The notes beneath the pieces are model-generated. The model was given only the letters and a program-made list of their open reading frames with translations, had not been told where the DNA came from and searched no databases. From the IMG/VR virus record IMGVR_UViG_3300031237_000041, positions 1 through 21,099 of that record: a stretch of DNA of 21,099 nucleotides; one strand, given 5' to 3'. The translations under genes were made by a program, and so were the position numbers. Shown here in pieces: positions 930 through 8,419 of this stretch (position 1 is the stretch's first letter; each line of letters opens with the position of its first letter). Source of the stretch: a virus.

Positions 930-1403
930 ATGCGCCCCACCCAGCCCCGCGACATCCGCGCGATCAAAACCGCGACCTCGGCCCTGATCGAGGAGTGCGG
1001 CGGCGTCGAGGCCGCCGCGACCATCACGCGTGTCGGCAAGAGCCAACTCTCCGACTACGCCAACCCCCATAAGCCGGACGTCGTGATCCCCGCCGATGTG
1101 GCGGCGGACCTGGAAGCAACGACGCATGCGCCGCTGATCACCGCGGTCCTGGCGCGCCTCACGCATCACCAGATCATGCCGCTGCCCGAGGCGGTGCGCG
1201 GCGACGAACTCCGCGCCTGCGCCGAGGCCCTGCGCGTCGCCGCCGAGGCCGGCGTGACCTTGTTCGATGCCGCCGCCGATGGGCTGCTCGACGACGCCGA
1301 GCACGGCGTGCTGGACGCGAACCTCGGCGCCCTGGTTGCCGCCACGCTGCGGGCCCGCGCGCTGCTGGCCGGCCGCCCGCTGCCGCTGGGGCAGGGGGCA
1401 TGA
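930..1403 (+). CDS. Putative DNA-binding phage regulator (Cro/CII-like)
   Basis: This 157-residue protein has an N-terminal helix-turn-helix-like segment at about residues 10-45: AIKTATSALIEECGG, then VEAAATITRVGKSQLSDYAN. The layout resembles small phage regulators that bind DNA through one N-terminal HTH. Residues 50-85 contain a DVAADLE...PLITAVLARL stretch often seen after the HTH in phage CII-like proteins. The rest is Ala/Leu-rich and helical. The ATG at 930 has only a weak ribosome-binding site. The gene is the first of the rightward operon and its stop overlaps the start of the GcrA-like gene (ATGA), so the two regulators are probably translated together. Divergence from the WYL gene suggests a role in early control. 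The exact family is uncertain. Confidence 0.6.
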   Translation: MRPTQPRDIRAIKTATSALIEECGGVEAAATITRVGKSQLSDYANPHKPDVVIPADVAADLEATTHAPLITAVLARLTHHQIMPLPEAVRGDELRACAEALRVAAEAGVTLFDAAADGLLDDAEHGVLDANLGALVAATLRARALLAGRPLPLGQGA

Positions 1404-1786
1404 GCTGGTCCGCCGACACCGATGCGGTGCTGCGCGCCGAATGGGCCGCCGGCACCACGACGTTGCAGATCGCGATCCTGCTGGGCGTCACCAAAAACGC
1501 GGTCGTGGGCCGGGTCAATCGGCTGCGGCTGACGCCGCGCGAAAACCCCGTCCACCGCGCCGATCCTCTGCGCACCAGGCTGCCCCGTCCACCCGCCGCC
1601 ACGACCCCTCCCGTGCCTGCCCCGCGCGCGGCCACCACCGGCTGCTGCCGCTATCCGTTGTGGCCGCATCGCGCCCGGCCGCCGCAGCCTGCGCTGTTCT
1701 GCGACGCGCCGTCGCTGCCGGGCCGTTCCTGGTGCGCCAGGCATTTCGACGTGGTGCATCTCCGCCCCACCGCGGGGGCCGCTTGA
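1400..1786 (+). CDS. GcrA-family transcriptional regulator
   Basis: The 128-residue protein has both ends of a GcrA protein. Residues 3-44 (WSADTDAVLRAEWAAG, then QIAILLGVTKNAVVGRVNRL) match the N-terminal DNA-binding domain. Residues 82-118 (CRYPLW, FCDAP, WCARHF) match the C-terminal cysteine-containing domain that contacts RNA polymerase sigma-70. Between them is a Pro/Ala-rich linker at about 60-78. Caulobacter GcrA is about 170 residues, so this copy is short mainly in the linker. GcrA stimulates sigma-70 promoters, many carrying CcrM-methylated GANTC sites. Here it is probably a phage copy that redirects host transcription or couples phage expression to the cell cycle. The start overlaps the previous stop by ATGA. 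Confidence 0.85.
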   Translation: MSWSADTDAVLRAEWAAGTTTLQIAILLGVTKNAVVGRVNRLRLTPRENPVHRADPLRTRLPRPPAATTPPVPAPRAATTGCCRYPLWPHRARPPQPALFCDAPSLPGRSWCARHFDVVHLRPTAGAA

Positions 1787-2223: not shown

Positions 2224-2879
2224 TGGACCTGGCTCGGATTTGGGCCGAGGCCTGGCGCCACCGCGCGCGCCTGCCCGACCCGCTGCCCGCGCCCTTCGCC
2301 GGCGCCGGGGCCCTCGCCGCATCGCTGCTCGGCGCCTTGCCGGTGCGTGACAGCATCGGCGAAGACGGCGATGCCGCATGGGAGCCGATCCCGATCGCCG
2401 AGGCGCGTCCGCGTGACTGGCGCGTGATCGTCGCGGTGCGCGGCGGATCATCCTGGACGGGCCCCGGACCCGGCGCCCTGGCCCGGATGGAGCTGGTCGA
2501 ACGGGCCCGCTATGTGCTGGCCTTCGGATTCATCGATCCGGTGGTGTTCGGCCCGCTGGTCGATCTCGTGGCGGTGCATCCCAAGCGCCCCGCACGTCTG
2601 CCCTGTCTGACCGGCCATGCCGATGCGCTGGGCGATCCGGGCTCGGCGCTGTCGCTGCACGGTCCTGTTCGCATCGCTCGCGACCTGGCCGAATGGGTCC
2701 GCCTGTTGCCGACCGCGGCGATCGCGCTGCCCCTCGGATCGCCCGAGGCCCAGGCCGCCTATCTACGCCGCTGCCACGACGGCGTGATCGGCACTGATCT
2801 CGCGCATGGCGAGGCGCTCGCGCAGCAGCTGCGCCGCCCGGTGCCGGCCGCGCCGCCGGTGTTCGTGGCGGCGGCATGA
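2223..2879 (+). CDS. Hypothetical early phage protein, 218 residues
   Basis: The ATG at 2223 overlaps the preceding stop as TGATG; a GTG one codon upstream is also possible. The protein is Ala/Pro/Leu-rich. It has a central hydrophobic segment, YVLAFGFIDPVVFGPLVDLVAV, that looks like buried beta-strand and helix rather than a transmembrane helix. A helical C-terminal half follows (EWVRLLPTAAIALPLG, EAQAAYLRRCHDGVIG, HGEALAQQLRR). I found no catalytic motif and do not recognise the family. It lies in the coupled operon immediately before the methyltransferase fragment and the replication ATPase, so an early role in DNA metabolism or host takeover is plausible but unproven. Confidence 0.6.
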   Translation: MDLARIWAEAWRHRARLPDPLPAPFAGAGALAASLLGALPVRDSIGEDGDAAWEPIPIAEARPRDWRVIVAVRGGSSWTGPGPGALARMELVERARYVLAFGFIDPVVFGPLVDLVAVHPKRPARLPCLTGHADALGDPGSALSLHGPVRIARDLAEWVRLLPTAAIALPLGSPEAQAAYLRRCHDGVIGTDLAHGEALAQQLRRPVPAAPPVFVAAA

Positions 2880-2880
2880 G

Positions 2881-3111
2881 ATGACAGAGGCCGATCATGT
2901 GGAGATGCTCGAGCTCGCCGTGCGCCTCGCCGGCATGGTGGTGATCAGCGGCTATCCGCATCCGCTCTACGACGACGCCCTGCGCGGCTGGCGCAGACTG
3001 GAGCGGCTCGCCTATGCCGATGGCGGGCGCGAGCGCTGCGAAGTGCTGTGGATCAGTCCCGCTGCGATGGCGCGTTCTGCCGGGATGCTGGCACTCGGAA
3101 GCGCCGCATGA
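2881..3111 (+). CDS. C-terminal fragment of a D12-class DNA adenine methyltransferase
   Basis: The 76-residue product (ATG at 2881, one base after the previous stop) matches only the end of Dam/D12-class adenine-N6 methyltransferases. The segment GMVVISGYPHPLYDDALRGW is the family's late SGY..LYD block, and CEVLWISP is the terminal EVLW strand. The catalytic DPPY motif and the SAM-binding FxGxG motif are absent, and no remnant of them is visible in the preceding gene. Complete enzymes are usually about 250-300 residues, so catalysis is not expected. The frame is intact and both junctions are tightly packed (ATGA overlap with the next gene), so the piece may be retained as a small expressed protein rather than left as debris. 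Confidence 0.75.
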   Translation: MTEADHVEMLELAVRLAGMVVISGYPHPLYDDALRGWRRLERLAYADGGRERCEVLWISPAAMARSAGMLALGSAA

Positions 3112-4850
3112 GCGAACGCGTCATCCCCCTGAACGATGCCAAGCGCGATGCCAAGCGCGCCGCCAGGGCCTCCCGCGACCGCCAGGACCGGAACCAGGAT
3201 CCCGCCCGCTTCGATAACCCGCCGGTCGCCCCGATCGGCACCGCCGACGGCAAATACTGGGTGTTCCAGGCCAATGGTGAGCTGCGCGGCCTACCCGCCA
3301 AGGACCTCGGCTCCTCGCCCACCCTGCTCGCCCTGTTCGATGCCGACGTCGCCTGGCTGTCCAGCCGCTTTCCCGCGTTCGACCGCGAGGGCAACCCGAC
3401 CGGCTGGTTTTCGACCAAGCACGTCAATGCCTGGCTGGTGTCCGAGTGCGCCCGTCACGGCCTGTTCGATCCCGATGTGCCGCAGCGCGGCGTCGGCGTC
3501 TGGCGCGCCGGCTCCGCCATGGTGCTGCACACCGGCCGTCAGGTGCGCCATGTCGCCGCCGATGGGCAGGTGACCGAACGCAATGCCGGATTCGCCGCCT
3601 GGGGCGCGCTCTGGCCCCGTCGCGCCGCGGTGCCGCCGCCCGGCGATCCCGCGCCCCTGGAACACGCCCATTGGCTCCTCGGCCTGCTGCAGCGCTGGAC
3701 GTGGGAGCGTAGCGGCGAGGCCGGCGTCTTCCTCGGCCTATGGGCCGCGGGGTTGCTCGGCGCGGCGATCCGCTGGCGCCCGCATGCGCTGGTGGTCGGC
3801 GGCGCCGGCACCGGCAAGTCGTCGTTGATGGAGATCTACGCCCTGGCCAGCCCGCTCGCCTTCGCGAGCAACGACTTCACCGAGCCTGGCCTGCGCCAAT
3901 CCCTGTCAGGCCGCGCCGCGCCGCTGGTGCTGGACGAGGCCGAGGGCGACATGGACGGCCAGTTCAAGATGCAAAAGGTGATCGAGCTATTGCGCCGCGT
4001 CAGCGGCGGAGAGGGCGCGCGCACCGTCAAGGGGTCGCCTGGCGGCGCGGCGCAGGTCTTCAGCGTCACCAGCGCTGCCGTGCTGGGCGCCATCCTGCCG
4101 CCGCCGCTGCTGCCGCAGGACGCCAGCCGCATCACACGCCTGGACCTCTGGCCCCGCGCCGAGGATAGCGACGCCCTGGGCCTGCCCGACGAGGCGGAGC
4201 GCGATCTGCTCGCCACCCGCGCCCCTGGGCTATGGGGTCGTGCCCTGGCCGGCCTGCCGCGGTTCCATGACAATTTCGTCGCCATCCGCACCGCCATCCT
4301 CGCCCATGGCTGCGCCCCACGTCTGGCCGACCAGATCGGCACCATCCTCGCCGCCCGCGACATGATGTTGTCAGACCGGCCATCCGACCCGCGGGCCGCC
4401 ATCGACAGCATACCCTGGCTGATCGTGACGGCCGCCGAGGCTGCCGCCGACGACGGCCCGCATGCTGCGCTGGCGCATCTGCTCGCGAGCCCATCCGAGA
4501 TCACCCACGGCGGCGAGAAACCTTCGATCGGCCGCCTCGTCCACCAGGCGCTGCACGACCAGGTGCCGATCGAGGCGCGTCGGCAGCTCGGCGAGCACGG
4601 CCTACGTGTCGCACCCATGTTGGCCGGCGTGCCCGGCAGCACGGTGCTCTACGTCGCCAATGCCCATCCGCGCCTCACTCGGATTTTCGAGGGCACGCAA
4701 TGGAACAGCGGCCGCTGGCGCGACGACCTGCGCCGTCTGCCCGGCGCCATGAACCCGCCCAACCCAGAGCGAATCGGGCATAGCAAGGTGCGCTGCACGG
4801 CCATTCCAGCCGCTCTGCTGCCACCGCTGCGGCCCGAGAGGGAGGACTGA
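3108..4850 (+). CDS. Phage P-loop ATPase, probable replicative primase/helicase-like protein
   Basis: The protein has 580 residues, with ATG at 3108 overlapping the previous stop (ATGA). Residues about 40-170 form an N-terminal domain (GKYWVFQANGELRGL, then FPAFD..GNPTGWFS, GLFDPDVPQRGVGVWR) that recurs before ATPase modules in phage and plasmid primase/helicase-like proteins. Residues 231-238 are a Walker A (GGAGTGKS) and 273-277 a Walker B (LVLDE). A sensor-like strand VFSVTSAAV at 318-326 and an Arg-rich DASRITRLDLW segment at 338-348 could supply the arginine finger. The C-terminal half is helical. The overall look is of an SF3/DUF927-like replication ATPase. No Toprim or archaeo-eukaryotic primase motif is evident. 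It sits directly before the repeat array at 4862-5067, which could be its origin. Confidence 0.65.
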   Translation: MSERVIPLNDAKRDAKRAARASRDRQDRNQDPARFDNPPVAPIGTADGKYWVFQANGELRGLPAKDLGSSPTLLALFDADVAWLSSRFPAFDREGNPTGWFSTKHVNAWLVSECARHGLFDPDVPQRGVGVWRAGSAMVLHTGRQVRHVAADGQVTERNAGFAAWGALWPRRAAVPPPGDPAPLEHAHWLLGLLQRWTWERSGEAGVFLGLWAAGLLGAAIRWRPHALVVGGAGTGKSSLMEIYALASPLAFASNDFTEPGLRQSLSGRAAPLVLDEAEGDMDGQFKMQKVIELLRRVSGGEGARTVKGSPGGAAQVFSVTSAAVLGAILPPPLLPQDASRITRLDLWPRAEDSDALGLPDEAERDLLATRAPGLWGRALAGLPRFHDNFVAIRTAILAHGCAPRLADQIGTILAARDMMLSDRPSDPRAAIDSIPWLIVTAAEAAADDGPHAALAHLLASPSEITHGGEKPSIGRLVHQALHDQVPIEARRQLGEHGLRVAPMLAGVPGSTVLYVANAHPRLTRIFEGTQWNSGRWRDDLRRLPGAMNPPNPERIGHSKVRCTAIPAALLPPLRPERED

Positions 4851-4861
4851 CCGCCTGGCTG

Positions 4862-5067
4862 ACCGTCCCGACCGTCCCGCCCACCGTCCCGCGCAAGTCG
4901 TTGAAAACGCTGCTTTGGGACGGTTGGGACGGTTGGGACGATCAATCTCCTTCATGTGTGTGCGTGCGCCCGCGTGAGGGAAATCTGGTGTCCCAACCGT
5001 CCCAACCGTCCCATTCCTTTATTATCAATAGGTTAAGCGGGACGGTAGGCGGGACGGTTGGGACGGT
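4862..5067. repeat. Iteron-like array of ACCGTCCC/GGGACGGT octamers, candidate replication origin
   Basis: Ten exact copies of one octamer occur in about 206 bases. They fall in four blocks of alternating orientation: ACCGTCCC at 4862, 4871 and 4883; GGGACGGT at 4917 and 4926 (a one-mismatch copy follows at 4935); ACCGTCCC at 4996 and 5005; GGGACGGT at 5039, 5051 and 5060. Most neighbours are spaced 9 bases, some 12. The blocks form large inverted repeats: 4916-4939 pairs perfectly with 4990-5013 (24 bp), and 4996-5012 pairs with 5051-5067 (17 bp). The array lies between the replication ATPase and the NusG-like gene, with an AT-rich patch inside it. Repeated sites plus an AT-rich element are typical of origins. 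An operator array or an RNA element for the NusG-like protein are alternatives. Confidence 0.7.
5014..5036. other. AT-rich patch inside the repeat array (possible unwinding element or promoter)
   Basis: The segment from TTCCTTTATTATC to AATAGGTTAA is strongly AT-rich in otherwise very GC-rich DNA and lies in the loop between two inverted repeat blocks. It could be a DNA-unwinding element of an origin. TATTAT could also serve as a -10 element for the downstream gene, but no matching -35 at proper spacing is clear. Confidence 0.4.
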
Positions 5068-5096: not shown

Positions 5097-5762
5097 ATGG
5101 GAGCCTGCCGCATGCCAGATCACGCCGTTGAACCGGCTCCGGGCGCTCTGTCGCCCTGGAGTGCGGCAGCCATTCAGCCCCCCGCCCGCTGGTACTGCGT
5201 TGAAAGCCTACCTGGCGCTGAACGCACAGCCCGCGACCGTCTTCAAGCACAGGACTTCACGGCTTACCTGCCGCTCTATGGCGTCAAGGTCCGCCACCAG
5301 TGCCGCCGGGCCGAGGCACGCATCGTCGTGCGTCCGCTCTTCCCCGGCTACCTGTTCGTCGCGTTCGACCGAGAGCGCGACCAATGGCGCCCCATCGCCA
5401 GTACTCGCGGCGTCAAGCGCTTGTTCGGCACGACGCCGGAGTTGCCGACCCCGCTGCCCGATGCCGCGATGGCGCTGATGTTGCGCACCGCCTCGCTGCA
5501 GTCCGTCGTGCCCCAGGCAACGCTCGAGGCGCTCGAGGCGGGCAAGATCACACCGGCCCAGGCTGCCGCCGCCCTGGACGTGCCCTCGCGGTCGCCGCAG
5601 CCACCCCTGACCCCGGGCACGACCATCCGCATCATCACGGGCCCGCTGGCCGGCAGCAGCGCGACGGTGAAATGGTCCGACAGCCGACGCGTCGCCGTGC
5701 TGTTCGGCCTCCTCGGCCAGCGCAGCCTCTCCATGCCGCGAGCCGCCGTCGAGCCATGCTGA
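5097..5762 (+). CDS. NusG/RfaH-like transcription antitermination protein
   Basis: The protein has 221 residues. The ATG at 5097 is preferred because AAGGAAG lies at 5084-5090, about 8 bases upstream; an in-frame TTG at 5058 lies inside the repeats. Residues about 31-115 form a NusG N-terminal domain: RWYCVESLPGAERTARDRL, then RPLFPGYLFVAF, the family's hallmark strand, then STRGVKRLFG. Residues about 172-200 form a KOW-like domain (PGTTIRIITGPLAGSSATVKW). NusG-family proteins bind the RNA polymerase clamp; specialised paralogues such as RfaH stop termination in chosen operons. The gene lies directly before the packaging and late genes, like Q-type antiterminators in lambdoid phages, so control of late transcription is the likely role (inference). 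The N-terminal 30 residues are a Pro/Ala-rich extension. Confidence 0.85.
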   Translation: MGACRMPDHAVEPAPGALSPWSAAAIQPPARWYCVESLPGAERTARDRLQAQDFTAYLPLYGVKVRHQCRRAEARIVVRPLFPGYLFVAFDRERDQWRPIASTRGVKRLFGTTPELPTPLPDAAMALMLRTASLQSVVPQATLEALEAGKITPAQAAAALDVPSRSPQPPLTPGTTIRIITGPLAGSSATVKWSDSRRVAVLFGLLGQRSLSMPRAAVEPC

Positions 5763-5788
5763 CCGGCGCCGCCTGGGTATCGGGGGAA

Positions 5789-5866: not shown

Positions 5867-5913
5867 GTTGCGGAAGGGTGCAACTGGATGCACCCGTTGC
5901 GTCGCTCTGCAAC
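5867..5913. promoter_or_regulatory. Two GTTGC-N8-GCAAC dyads upstream of the small terminase (cosB-like or operator)
   Basis: Two dyads of identical layout occur: GTTGC at 5867-5871 with GCAAC at 5880-5884, and GTTGC at 5896-5900 with GCAAC at 5909-5913. Their centres are 29 bases apart. A further hairpin-capable pair, GGGTGCA at 5876-5882 and TGCACCC at 5889-5895, lies across them. They sit between the cosN candidate and the terminase start at 5929, where lambda has its small-terminase binding sites. The small terminase here has an HTH domain, so binding as a dimer is plausible. An operator for another regulator is the alternative. Confidence 0.45.
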
Positions 5914-5928
5914 GCAGGCAGGTTGACC

Positions 5929-6420
5929 ATGCCAAGGCTGACCATCACAGAGATTGCCGCCCATGCCGGGGTCCATAAAAGCACCGTTTCACGACAGGTC
6001 CGCCGCCATCATCTCGTCGGCGCCGATGGCCTGGCTGATCTGGATGCCTACCTCGCTTTGCGTGCATCAGGAATCGATCCGGCCCTGCAGACCTCGGACA
6101 CGGCCGCCATCGTTGGTGGCGATGAAAAGTCATTAGCCGCTGAGCGCAAGCGGAAGATGTCAGCCGACGCCGAGCTGGCAGAGCTGGAATTGGCACGTCA
6201 AAAGCATGAGCTCGTGCAGGTACGCGATGTTGAGACAGCGCAGGAAGACATCGCTCGAAAGGTCCGCCAGGCCGTCATGGACGTAGCTAGGAATGAAGCG
6301 GCGGCCCTAGTGCTGCTGGCGGACGAACAGGCGATCGAGGGGCATCTGGTCCTGGCGCTTGCCGCCGCCCTGGATAGCGTGAGGGACCCAGACACCGATG
6401 ACATGGGACGGGCTTCCTGA
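5929..6420 (+). CDS. Terminase small subunit (Nu1-like)
   Basis: The protein has 163 residues from ATG 5929, with AGG at 5916-5922 as a modest ribosome-binding site. An N-terminal helix-turn-helix spans residues 5-28 (TITEIAAHAGVHKSTVSRQVRR). Residues 65-120 are a charged helical region (EKSLAAERKRKMSADAELAELELARQKHEL), typical of the oligomerisation part of Nu1-like small terminases. The C-terminus is helical and acidic. The small subunit recognises the packaging site and recruits the large subunit. The gene directly follows the cosN candidate and its end overlaps the large terminase by 23 bases. Codons here use more A/T at the third position than the head and tail genes do. Confidence 0.85.
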   Translation: MPRLTITEIAAHAGVHKSTVSRQVRRHHLVGADGLADLDAYLALRASGIDPALQTSDTAAIVGGDEKSLAAERKRKMSADAELAELELARQKHELVQVRDVETAQEDIARKVRQAVMDVARNEAAALVLLADEQAIEGHLVLALAAALDSVRDPDTDDMGRAS

Positions 6421-8419
6421 CGCTGAGACGATAGTTCGCCGCGCCTGGTCGCGGGGGCTCGCTTCGCCACCGTCAAGGTCTCCATCGGAGTGGGCTGACG
6501 ACAAGCGCATCCTCGGCACCGAGGAAGGGAAGTTTCCAGGAAAGTGGAAGACCAGCCGGACCCCATACCTTATCGAGCCCCTGGCCTGCATGGCGTTGGC
6601 GCACCCGTGCGAACGGGTGAGCCTGATGTTCTCGGCGCAGACGGCGAAGACGGCGGGTCTTTTGAACGTAGGTGGGCAGATCGCGTGCGAGACGCCGGCG
6701 ACCGTGCTCTGGGTGCTGCCGTCACTGGATGAGGCCAGCGCGTTCAATCGGGAGAAGCTGGATCCAATGATTCAGAACAGCCCCGCTGTACGGCAACGGA
6801 TCAAGCCGCTGGCGAGCCGAGATAATTCGGGCAGCACGATGCTGCGCAAGATTTTCCCAGGCGGAAATATCGAGATCGTCGGAGCGAACTCGTCCAAGGG
6901 CCTGCAGATGCGCACCAAGCGCGTCGTGATCATGGACGAAATTTCCGAGTTCCCGTTTAGCATCGGAACTCGGGGTGATCCGGTCTTGATGGCCGAAACC
7001 CGGACTATCGCCTGGGGCAATCTCAAAAAAATTATCGCGGCGAGCACGCCTGGGCTTAAGGGCACCTGTCGGATCACCAAGCGGTGGGAAGAAGGATCAG
7101 CCGGGCGCTATCACGTGCCATGCCCGCACTGCCACACGCGGCAGGCATTGAAGTTTGCCAACCTGCACTGGCCTGACGGAAAGCCCGAGCTCGCAGCCTA
7201 CCACTGCGATAGCTGCGGGGCAGCCATCCAGCACGCGGCCAAGCGATCGATGCTGGCGGCTGGCGCCTGGGTGCATGAACACCCCGAGCGGTTGGGGAGC
7301 CACGCAAGCTATGCGCTGAACACGCTCTACTCGCCCTTCGCGACCTGGTCCGAGATGGCCCGCAAGCGCGAGGAATCGCGCGATGATCCGCAGGCCGACA
7401 AGGTCTTCACCCAGCAATGGCTCGGCGAGGCCTATGAGGCTCACCACGATCTTCCGAGCCATGAGGTTCTGCACCGCCGTCGAGACGCCAGGCCGCAAGG
7501 GCGCATTCCTCCAGGAGTGCTGTTCCTGGAGGGCGCGACCGACGTGCAGGGCAATCGCCTGGAATGGGGCGTCTACGGATTCGATCGGCACTTCGGCCAA
7601 TGGCTGGTGGACGGTGGCGTACTTGAAGGCGATCCGAATCTTCGCCTGGTCTGGGACCAGATGGCCGAGATCATGGCCCGGGATTGGCCAGACGCCTGGG
7701 GACGGCGCTGGCGCGCTACATCATGGGGCATCGATTCCGGCTTCCTGTCGCCGCAGGTCTATCGCTTCACCAGGCGCCATGCGGGCCAGGCCGAACCGCG
7801 GGTGATGGCGCTCGACGGACGCGCCAAATGGGGGCTGCCGGCGATCGGCACGCCCACCATCCGCGATGTCGACTACGACGGCCGCAAGATCGGCGTGGTG
7901 CAGCTCTGGCCTGTCGGCACATGGGACATCAAGAGCGAAGTCGCCTCGGCCATGCGACTGACCGAAATGGGGCCCGATGAAACCGGCGCCTGGCGGCGCG
8001 GCGCCATGCGGTTCCATGAGGCCTGCAGCGCGAATTTTTTTCAGCAGCTCTGCGCTGAAGCCTGCGTCGAGATCGACACCAGGCAAGGGACCAGCCGCCG
8101 CGAATGGAAAAAACTGGGGCCGAATGAACAATGGGATCTGGCCACCTATACCCGCGCCCTGGCGCGCCATGACACGGCGCAGTTCACCGAGGTGGAATGG
8201 GATGGGCTATCCGCCAAACGGCTGGGGCCGGCCATGGCCGCGCAGCCGGATCTGGCCAGCTTCTGGGCGCCCGGGATTCGGGATGTCGCAGCGCCGCCGG
8301 CGGCACCGCCGCCAGCCCCGGAACCGCCGCTCGATATCGTGGCGAGGCCGGGTTGGGCTGAGGGGCGTGCGGCCGGCTGGGGTCGCGCGACAGGCTGGGG
8401 ACGCGGAGCAGGACGGTAA
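6398..8419 (+). CDS. Terminase large subunit, GpA family
   Basis: The protein has 673 residues, within the GpA range (lambda A is 641). The N-terminal ATPase carries SAQTAKTAGLLN at residues 79-90, a Walker A-like loop with Lys84, and VVIMDE at 176-181 as Walker B. Residues 242-273 hold paired cysteines (CPHC and CDSC) in a zinc-ribbon-like insertion seen in the GpA family. The nuclease domain begins near residue 375 (FLEGATDVQGNRLEW, Asp381 a likely metal ligand) with a further acidic position in IDSGFLSPQVY. The enzyme pumps DNA into the prohead and cuts it at cos. The extreme C-terminus is Pro-rich and then Gly/Trp/Arg-rich with GWGR repeats, probably the portal-contact tail. A run of seven T lies at 8035-8041 within an intact frame. 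Confidence 0.95.
   Translation: MTWDGLPDAETIVRRAWSRGLASPPSRSPSEWADDKRILGTEEGKFPGKWKTSRTPYLIEPLACMALAHPCERVSLMFSAQTAKTAGLLNVGGQIACETPATVLWVLPSLDEASAFNREKLDPMIQNSPAVRQRIKPLASRDNSGSTMLRKIFPGGNIEIVGANSSKGLQMRTKRVVIMDEISEFPFSIGTRGDPVLMAETRTIAWGNLKKIIAASTPGLKGTCRITKRWEEGSAGRYHVPCPHCHTRQALKFANLHWPDGKPELAAYHCDSCGAAIQHAAKRSMLAAGAWVHEHPERLGSHASYALNTLYSPFATWSEMARKREESRDDPQADKVFTQQWLGEAYEAHHDLPSHEVLHRRRDARPQGRIPPGVLFLEGATDVQGNRLEWGVYGFDRHFGQWLVDGGVLEGDPNLRLVWDQMAEIMARDWPDAWGRRWRATSWGIDSGFLSPQVYRFTRRHAGQAEPRVMALDGRAKWGLPAIGTPTIRDVDYDGRKIGVVQLWPVGTWDIKSEVASAMRLTEMGPDETGAWRRGAMRFHEACSANFFQQLCAEACVEIDTRQGTSRREWKKLGPNEQWDLATYTRALARHDTAQFTEVEWDGLSAKRLGPAMAAQPDLASFWAPGIRDVAAPPAAPPPAPEPPLDIVARPGWAEGRAAGWGRATGWGRGAGR

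Follow-up and report, generated by a model that had tools for sequence, protein, structure and literature searches.

The C-terminal domains of SaPI Rep and of Cch2 bind iterons located just downstream of their own genes (PMC7581432), and SaPI Rep apparently binds as two hexamers (PMC7581432 citing Ubeda et al. 2007). Cch is described as a relative of the Rep helicase of SaPIbov1 (PMC7581432). PICI origins lie 3′ of the rep/initiator gene and consist of two iteron sets flanking an AT-rich region; they have been tested on plasmids (PMC6092414). The origin of lambda-type phages is likewise made of repeated initiator sites, namely iterons inside gene O, next to an AT-rich stretch (for comparison, see PMC7466680).

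Here, we analysed a 21,099-base stretch of viral DNA (IMG/VR record IMGVR_UViG_3300031237_000041, positions 1 to 21,099; hereafter the window), in which an array of short repeats stands directly 3′ of the gene of an AAA+ helicase. The preliminary description of this locus, made from sequence alone, had favoured an iteron-type origin belonging to the ATPase gene. This idea was supported by comparison, because relatives carry the array directly 3′ of the gene and their iterons track the C-terminal subdomain of the helicase, although there are no binding or replication data. We regard it as likely that the array is an iteron replication origin which is read by the C-terminal domain of the upstream helicase and works in the SaPI/PICI manner; both the binding and the origin activity are inferred.

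As in SaPI and PICI origins, the iterons immediately follow the 3′ end of an AAA+ helicase gene, sets of them lie by an AT-rich stretch and the iteron sequence is element-specific. Those origins, however, have two iteron sets around one AT-rich region, whereas here about 12 iterons are distributed over four blocks of alternating orientation, and the centre is an alternating purine/pyrimidine tract. They also belong to satellite islands, while the window is a phage with terminase, portal, head and tail genes of its own. Since the window encodes a terminase, portal, head protease and tail proteins of its own, it is not a PICI, a satellite that depends on a helper phage for its particles. Cch of SCCmec (5dgk) is the nearest solved fold, and the C-terminal domain of Cch2 binds direct repeats downstream of its own gene (PMC7581432); but there are three 5-nt iterons in that system against a 12-iteron dyad here, and no sequence-level relation was found. 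The likeness to a lambda-type origin is that of a phage origin with repeated initiator sites beside an AT-rich stretch; unlike that origin, the repeats here are 3′ of the helicase gene and outside any initiator gene, the presumed initiator being the helicase itself. The kind of origin is thus already known from SaPI/PICI; what differs is the layout of four blocks with a Z-prone centre, and its presence in whole tailed phages. In the open-access literature searched, no description was found of these repeats, of the four-block layout with a central tract, or of Z-DNA or alternating tracts at phage origins.

Structure of the repeat array

The features of the locus are as follows (positions are those of the window).

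3048-4850, + strand: presumed initiator gene, 600-aa AAA+ helicase (PHROG 21086/35358; Cch/SaPI-Rep-like fold by prediction)
4662-4817, + strand: helicase codons 539-590, C-terminal subdomain, presumed iteron reader (from covariation with iteron sequence)
4862-4890, − strand: iteron block A, three ACCGTCCC starting at 4862, 4871 and 4883
4891-4916, no strand: gap A-B, GC 0.50, holding GTTGAAAA
4917-4942, + strand: iteron block B, GGGACGGT at 4917 and 4926, GGGACGAT at 4935
4953-4969, no strand: alternating purine/pyrimidine (Z-prone) tract CATGTGTGTGCGTGCGC, containing the dyad centre
4987-5012, − strand: iteron block C, degenerate GGTGTCCC at 4987, ACCGTCCC at 4996 and 5005
5013-5038, no strand: AT-rich gap C-D, GC 0.27, candidate unwinding element
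5039-5067, + strand: iteron block D, GGGACGGT at 5039, 5051 and 5060
5097-5762, + strand: NusG/RfaH-like antiterminator gene (PF02357, E 7e-18), a neighbour outside the element
5878-6420, + strand: small terminase gene, a neighbour outside the element
6398-8419, + strand: large terminase gene (GpA type), a neighbour outside the element

Ten exact octamers (GGGACGGT/ACCGTCCC) occur at 4862-5067, the first beginning 12 bp past the end of the helicase gene, and no further copy was found in the window. In 100 dinucleotide shuffles of the window the octamer count averaged 0.77 and never exceeded 4, so the earlier claim of ten exact octamers beyond chance held. When the GGGAC core was counted instead, exactly 12 copies were located in the array (36 in the entire window), six per strand: at 4917, 4926, 4935, 5039, 5051 and 5060 on the + strand, and at 4865, 4874, 4886, 4990, 4999 and 5008 on the − strand. 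By this core the array is laid out as 3+3+3+3, in four blocks with orientations −/+/−/+, which upheld the four alternating blocks of the preliminary description and refined them to twelve cores. Two copies are degenerate: GGGACGAT at 4935, which is copy 3 of block B, and GTCCC at 4990, which is copy 1 of block C. The iterons are spaced 9 or 12 bases from start to start. The two perfect inverted repeats described earlier were also both present, one of 24 bp (arms 4916-4939 and 4990-5013) and one of 17 bp (arms 4996-5012 and 5051-5067).

The midpoint of the outer pair of blocks (4964.5) nearly coincides with that of the inner pair (4966), placing a dyad at about 4965. Its centre falls inside the 17-nt alternating tract CATGTGTGTGCGTGCGC, which is the sole alternating purine/pyrimidine run of at least 13 nt in the 21-kb window. 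The C-D gap is AT-rich, with a GC content of 0.27 vs 0.69 for the window. The central gap is GC-rich and alternating, and the AT-rich gap is flanked instead by C and D. Neither the alternating tract at the dyad nor the AT-rich gap had been included in the earlier account. The array, its dyad geometry and the central tract are shown directly by these data.

The upstream helicase and neighbouring genes

The product of 3048-4850 matched PHROG 21086 and 35358 ("DNA primase"), but no Pfam family was found for it, and searches of Pfam and PDB gave no sequence match beyond the P-loop. The AlphaFold (AF2) model of the protein had a mean pLDDT of 89.1, and its best match among solved structures was SCCmec Cch (5dgk; Foldseek E 2.4e-8). 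VIA also ranked 5dgk first, aligning 426 residues (positions 52-595 of the model) at Z 17.0; MCM ATPase domains came next at Z about 15, and after them the SaPI5 primase-helicase (7ola) at Z 14.0. The likeness to helicases of the SaPI Rep/Cch kind is thus one of predicted fold, and the model predicts a fold nearest to that of a self-loading initiator helicase. For the isolated C-terminal domain no convincing relative was obtained among solved structures (best Z 4.1); its weak matches of Z 2-4 were mostly to DNA-binding domains (pCW3 relaxosome protein, IBP39, HSF, IRF) and were excluded as evidence.

On the other side of the array, the product of 5097-5762 matched the RfaH model with an E of 1.5e-23, under the cut-off of that model. 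No primase gene was recognised in the window, and the proteins encoded at 37-930, 1936-2223 and 2220-2879 remained without assigned function. Among the other genes, a GcrA-like cell-cycle regulator is encoded at 1400-1786 (+ strand; PF07750, E 7e-13) beside a CII-like gene (930-1403), which suggests an alphaproteobacterial host. A 101-aa open reading frame at 2806-3111 (+ strand) weakly resembled DNA methyltransferases in the PHROG comparison (E 6e-11) and is perhaps a fragment.

Recurrence of the layout in relatives of the helicase

Homologues of the helicase were collected from 7 of 385 genomes of one bacterial class and from 80 viral contigs, and the DNA 3′ of each gene was inspected. At least seven copies of one 6-mer were present within 560 bp of the helicase stop in 38 of 70 non-redundant loci, while only 25 of 1054 windows taken elsewhere in these loci reached this array threshold (2.4%). 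These counts show that the array recurs behind the genes of this helicase family; the relatives that carry the layout have 24-57% identity. Adjacent to the helicase gene, 32 of the 70 relatives were below the threshold. In several of these an array was located upstream or at a distance of 0.4-2.4 kb (L110, +1.1 kb; L128, +1.6 kb; L138, +2.0 kb, for instance), and others had none anywhere in the approximately 9 kb of locus examined. Where cultured phages have relatives of the helicase fused to a primase, an adjacent array was mostly absent. On the question raised earlier, whether the octamer always lies beside this ATPase family, the result is mixed: in some relatives the ATPase is present but no array adjoins it, although several of these have one elsewhere in the locus. 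A close-relative search of viral contigs with the NusG-like and helicase proteins gave none, a nucleotide search of cultured phages gave no match, and a 32-nt repeat probe found merely weak matches, in phages and plasmids.

Synechococcus phage MinM1, which is syntenic with the window, has the four-block layout with GTGTGAG-type iterons (CTCACA). The same layout was seen with CCTAACG (L085), CGTAACC (L088), GGGACA (L092, L095), TTCACA (L098), CGCTACA (L113), AGCGACA (L115) and TGAAACC (L130), among others. Iteron sequence therefore varies among the relatives (TGGGACA, TTCACA, CTAACG, CGCTACA and others) around a pattern of roughly NGNNACA; in a hand-made alignment of the iterons of 39 arrays, C was found at position 6 in 38 and A at position 5 in 35, and position 4 was variable. 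In three whole phage records (L101, L109, L132) only 10-12 copies of the respective core were counted, nearly all of them within the array.

The anatomy was compared in 28 arrays with four delimitable blocks, chosen by eye for clear block gaps. Neighbouring blocks were oppositely oriented in all 28 for B/C and for C/D, and in 27 for A/B. These arrays held 11.4 iterons on average, with a start spacing of 8.6 in the inner blocks and 11.9 in the outer ones; eight were exactly 3+3+3+3, as is the window if its degenerate first core of block C is counted. In the central gap the alternating run averaged 18.4 nt vs 6.3 ± 0.35 in shuffled gaps, so that the central tract is a shown property of the family, while the runs in the two outer gaps were no different from shuffles. 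The C-D gap of the family is AT-rich (mean GC 0.334). The longest tract seen was a perfect alternating run of 47 nt in L160, where it lies in the central gap of the array that follows the helicase gene.

Covariation of the iterons with the helicase C-terminus

For 29 arrays, the similarity of automatically derived iteron profiles was compared with the identity of helicase segments. All segments correlated with the iterons, as common descent predicts, and residues 539-590 did so most strongly (Mantel r 0.451 overall and 0.309 for distant pairs, each with 0/2000 permutations as high). Given the ATPase core, the partial r of residues 539-590 was 0.358 (0/2000 permutations), against 0.11-0.16 for the other segments. 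A version of the test with hand-aligned motifs gave an agreeing result. TCACA-type iterons (MinM1, L098, L107, L109) pair with a WW-containing variant of the 539-590 subdomain, and a different variant is common to the window and its GGGACA relatives L092 and L094. Iteron sequence thus tracks the C-terminal subdomain of the helicase and not the ATPase core; the covariation itself is shown, but it is a correlation in a modest sample, without binding data.

Arrays beside other helicase families

The octamer pair also turned up in bacterial genomes and further viral contigs. Many of the genome matches were repeats of a different kind, running in one orientation, and were excluded; long one-orientation tandem repeats of the TTGGGACGG type (L035, L046, L047, L057, L058, L061), mostly in Victivallales/Bacteroidales MAGs, are a different phenomenon. 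Alternating arrays with the octamer pair were located 3′ of helicase genes of the VapE (L015, L016, L029), D5 (L006) and actinobacterial DUF3631 (L034, L040, L052) types. In L016 the next gene codes for antitermination Q. In L052 and L063, the DUF3631 gene and its GGGACGG array are followed by a helix-turn-helix gene and then an integrase, with no terminase or late genes adjoining. For arrays of the VapE type, the longest alternating run of the 500-bp region lay within the main gap at 13 of 16 loci, although this gap averages 14% of the region. By hhalign, the window helicase family had no similarity to VapE beyond the P-loop. GGGAC-type iterons occur beside VapE all the same, and helicase family and iteron motif are thus not strictly coupled. 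More distant VapE relatives (L193-L245) were mostly without an adjacent array.

Further observations concern the same loci. The VapE-helicase phages L172-L190 have CAACCTGCCC-type iterons and a central alternating tract. Compact alternating arrays with a GGGACGG core stand 3′ of the actinobacterial DUF3631 genes (L034:1188-1345, L040:977-1115, L052:1421-1565, L063:1466-1600) and have neither a long central gap nor an alternating tract. A protein of unknown function, PHROG 9306, is encoded directly 3′ of the array in loci with two different helicase families (L006:1557-2273, L084:4036-4635, L088:3034-3645); there the helicase has apparently been swapped and the downstream gene kept.

Alternative explanations

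The array might be a packaging site, that is, a cosB- or pac-like terminase recognition site bound by the small terminase encoded downstream. The cosB and pac sites of the lambda kind are short repeated sites 5′ of terminase genes, and in many relatives the array does lie at the border of replication and packaging genes, with terminase genes next. However, large terminases of two families follow the same architecture, PHROG 15 in the window and MinM1 and PHROG 2 in L086 and L117, and the same-core arrays of L052 and L063 have no adjoining terminase. The array layout is thus independent of the terminase family and present also without terminase neighbours, and this reading is weakened for these reasons; moreover, the iterons track the helicase C-terminus, with no matching comparison for the small terminase. 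We therefore hold it to be very improbable. About as improbable is a regulatory DNA or RNA element of the downstream gene, either a set of operators or an element in RNA or in the nontemplate strand that serves the NusG/RfaH-like protein in late transcription. In its favour, the gene directly after the array is NusG/RfaH-like in the window, in MinM1 and in L095 and is the antitermination Q gene in L016, and the blocks of the array could pair as RNA. But such pairing is explained by the alternating iteron orientation alone, and the covariation is with the helicase. The downstream gene varies (PHROG 9306, PHROG 15261, terminase-associated, integrase), whereas a replication helicase is encoded upstream in the loci that were examined. 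Action through the NusG-like neighbour, an alternative offered in the preliminary description, is unsupported; it is weakened because that neighbour is rare, being confined to the window, MinM1 and L095 among the array-bearing relatives examined, which mostly have some other gene downstream.

It is also conceivable that the array is an origin but that another protein, an initiator or a partition-like factor, binds the iterons and the helicase is loaded in a later step. This would suit the occurrence of GGGAC-type iterons with helicases of no detectable sequence similarity (VapE, D5, DUF3631), and the several unassigned window proteins listed above leave room for such a binder. On the other hand, no conserved partner gene except the helicase was noted beside the arrays, albeit without a systematic search; iteron similarity follows the last ~50 structured residues of the helicase above its core; and structural relatives read their own iterons (PMC7581432). 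We judge this version, too, to have very little chance of being correct.

Proposed mode of action and significance

In the helicase-read origin that we prefer, the protein encoded upstream would bind the iterons via its C-terminal domain, and two hexamers, with six iterons each, would form on the mirror halves A+B and C+D about the dyad. The double hexamer is inferred because the twelve iterons stand in mirror halves. The duplex would open in the alternating tract at the centre, in the AT-rich C-D gap, or in both, and the hexamers would load themselves and travel apart, giving bidirectional replication. Binding of protein to DNA, the site of melting and replication from the array are inferred as well. 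Cumulative GC skew, suggested earlier as a check, left the array unmarked: the minimum of the window is at 5773, 0.7 kb downstream of the array, and in most of nine related phages the minima were off the array.

A bolder reading is that these arrays represent a widespread, undescribed class of tailed-phage origins, with about 12 iterons in four mirror blocks, a Z-DNA-prone centre and a double hexamer of self-loading helicases, on a plan common to Cch-like, VapE and D5 helicases and with an NGNNACA-like code (variable middle bases) coevolving with a C-terminal reader of ~50 residues. We lean towards this reading, if only by a narrow margin.

For most environmental phages and prophages the origin has yet to be identified, and this layout can be detected by sequence alone. 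For dozens of phages with a helicase that Pfam does not label, it assigns origin and initiator jointly, and it would carry over to whole phages an organisation reported as unique to phage satellites. The different iterons with their different C-terminal domains form a natural series in which the specificity between initiator and origin is directly testable. Finally, the conserved alternating tract at the dyad raises the question of whether a Z-prone sequence marks where two MCM-like rings open DNA.
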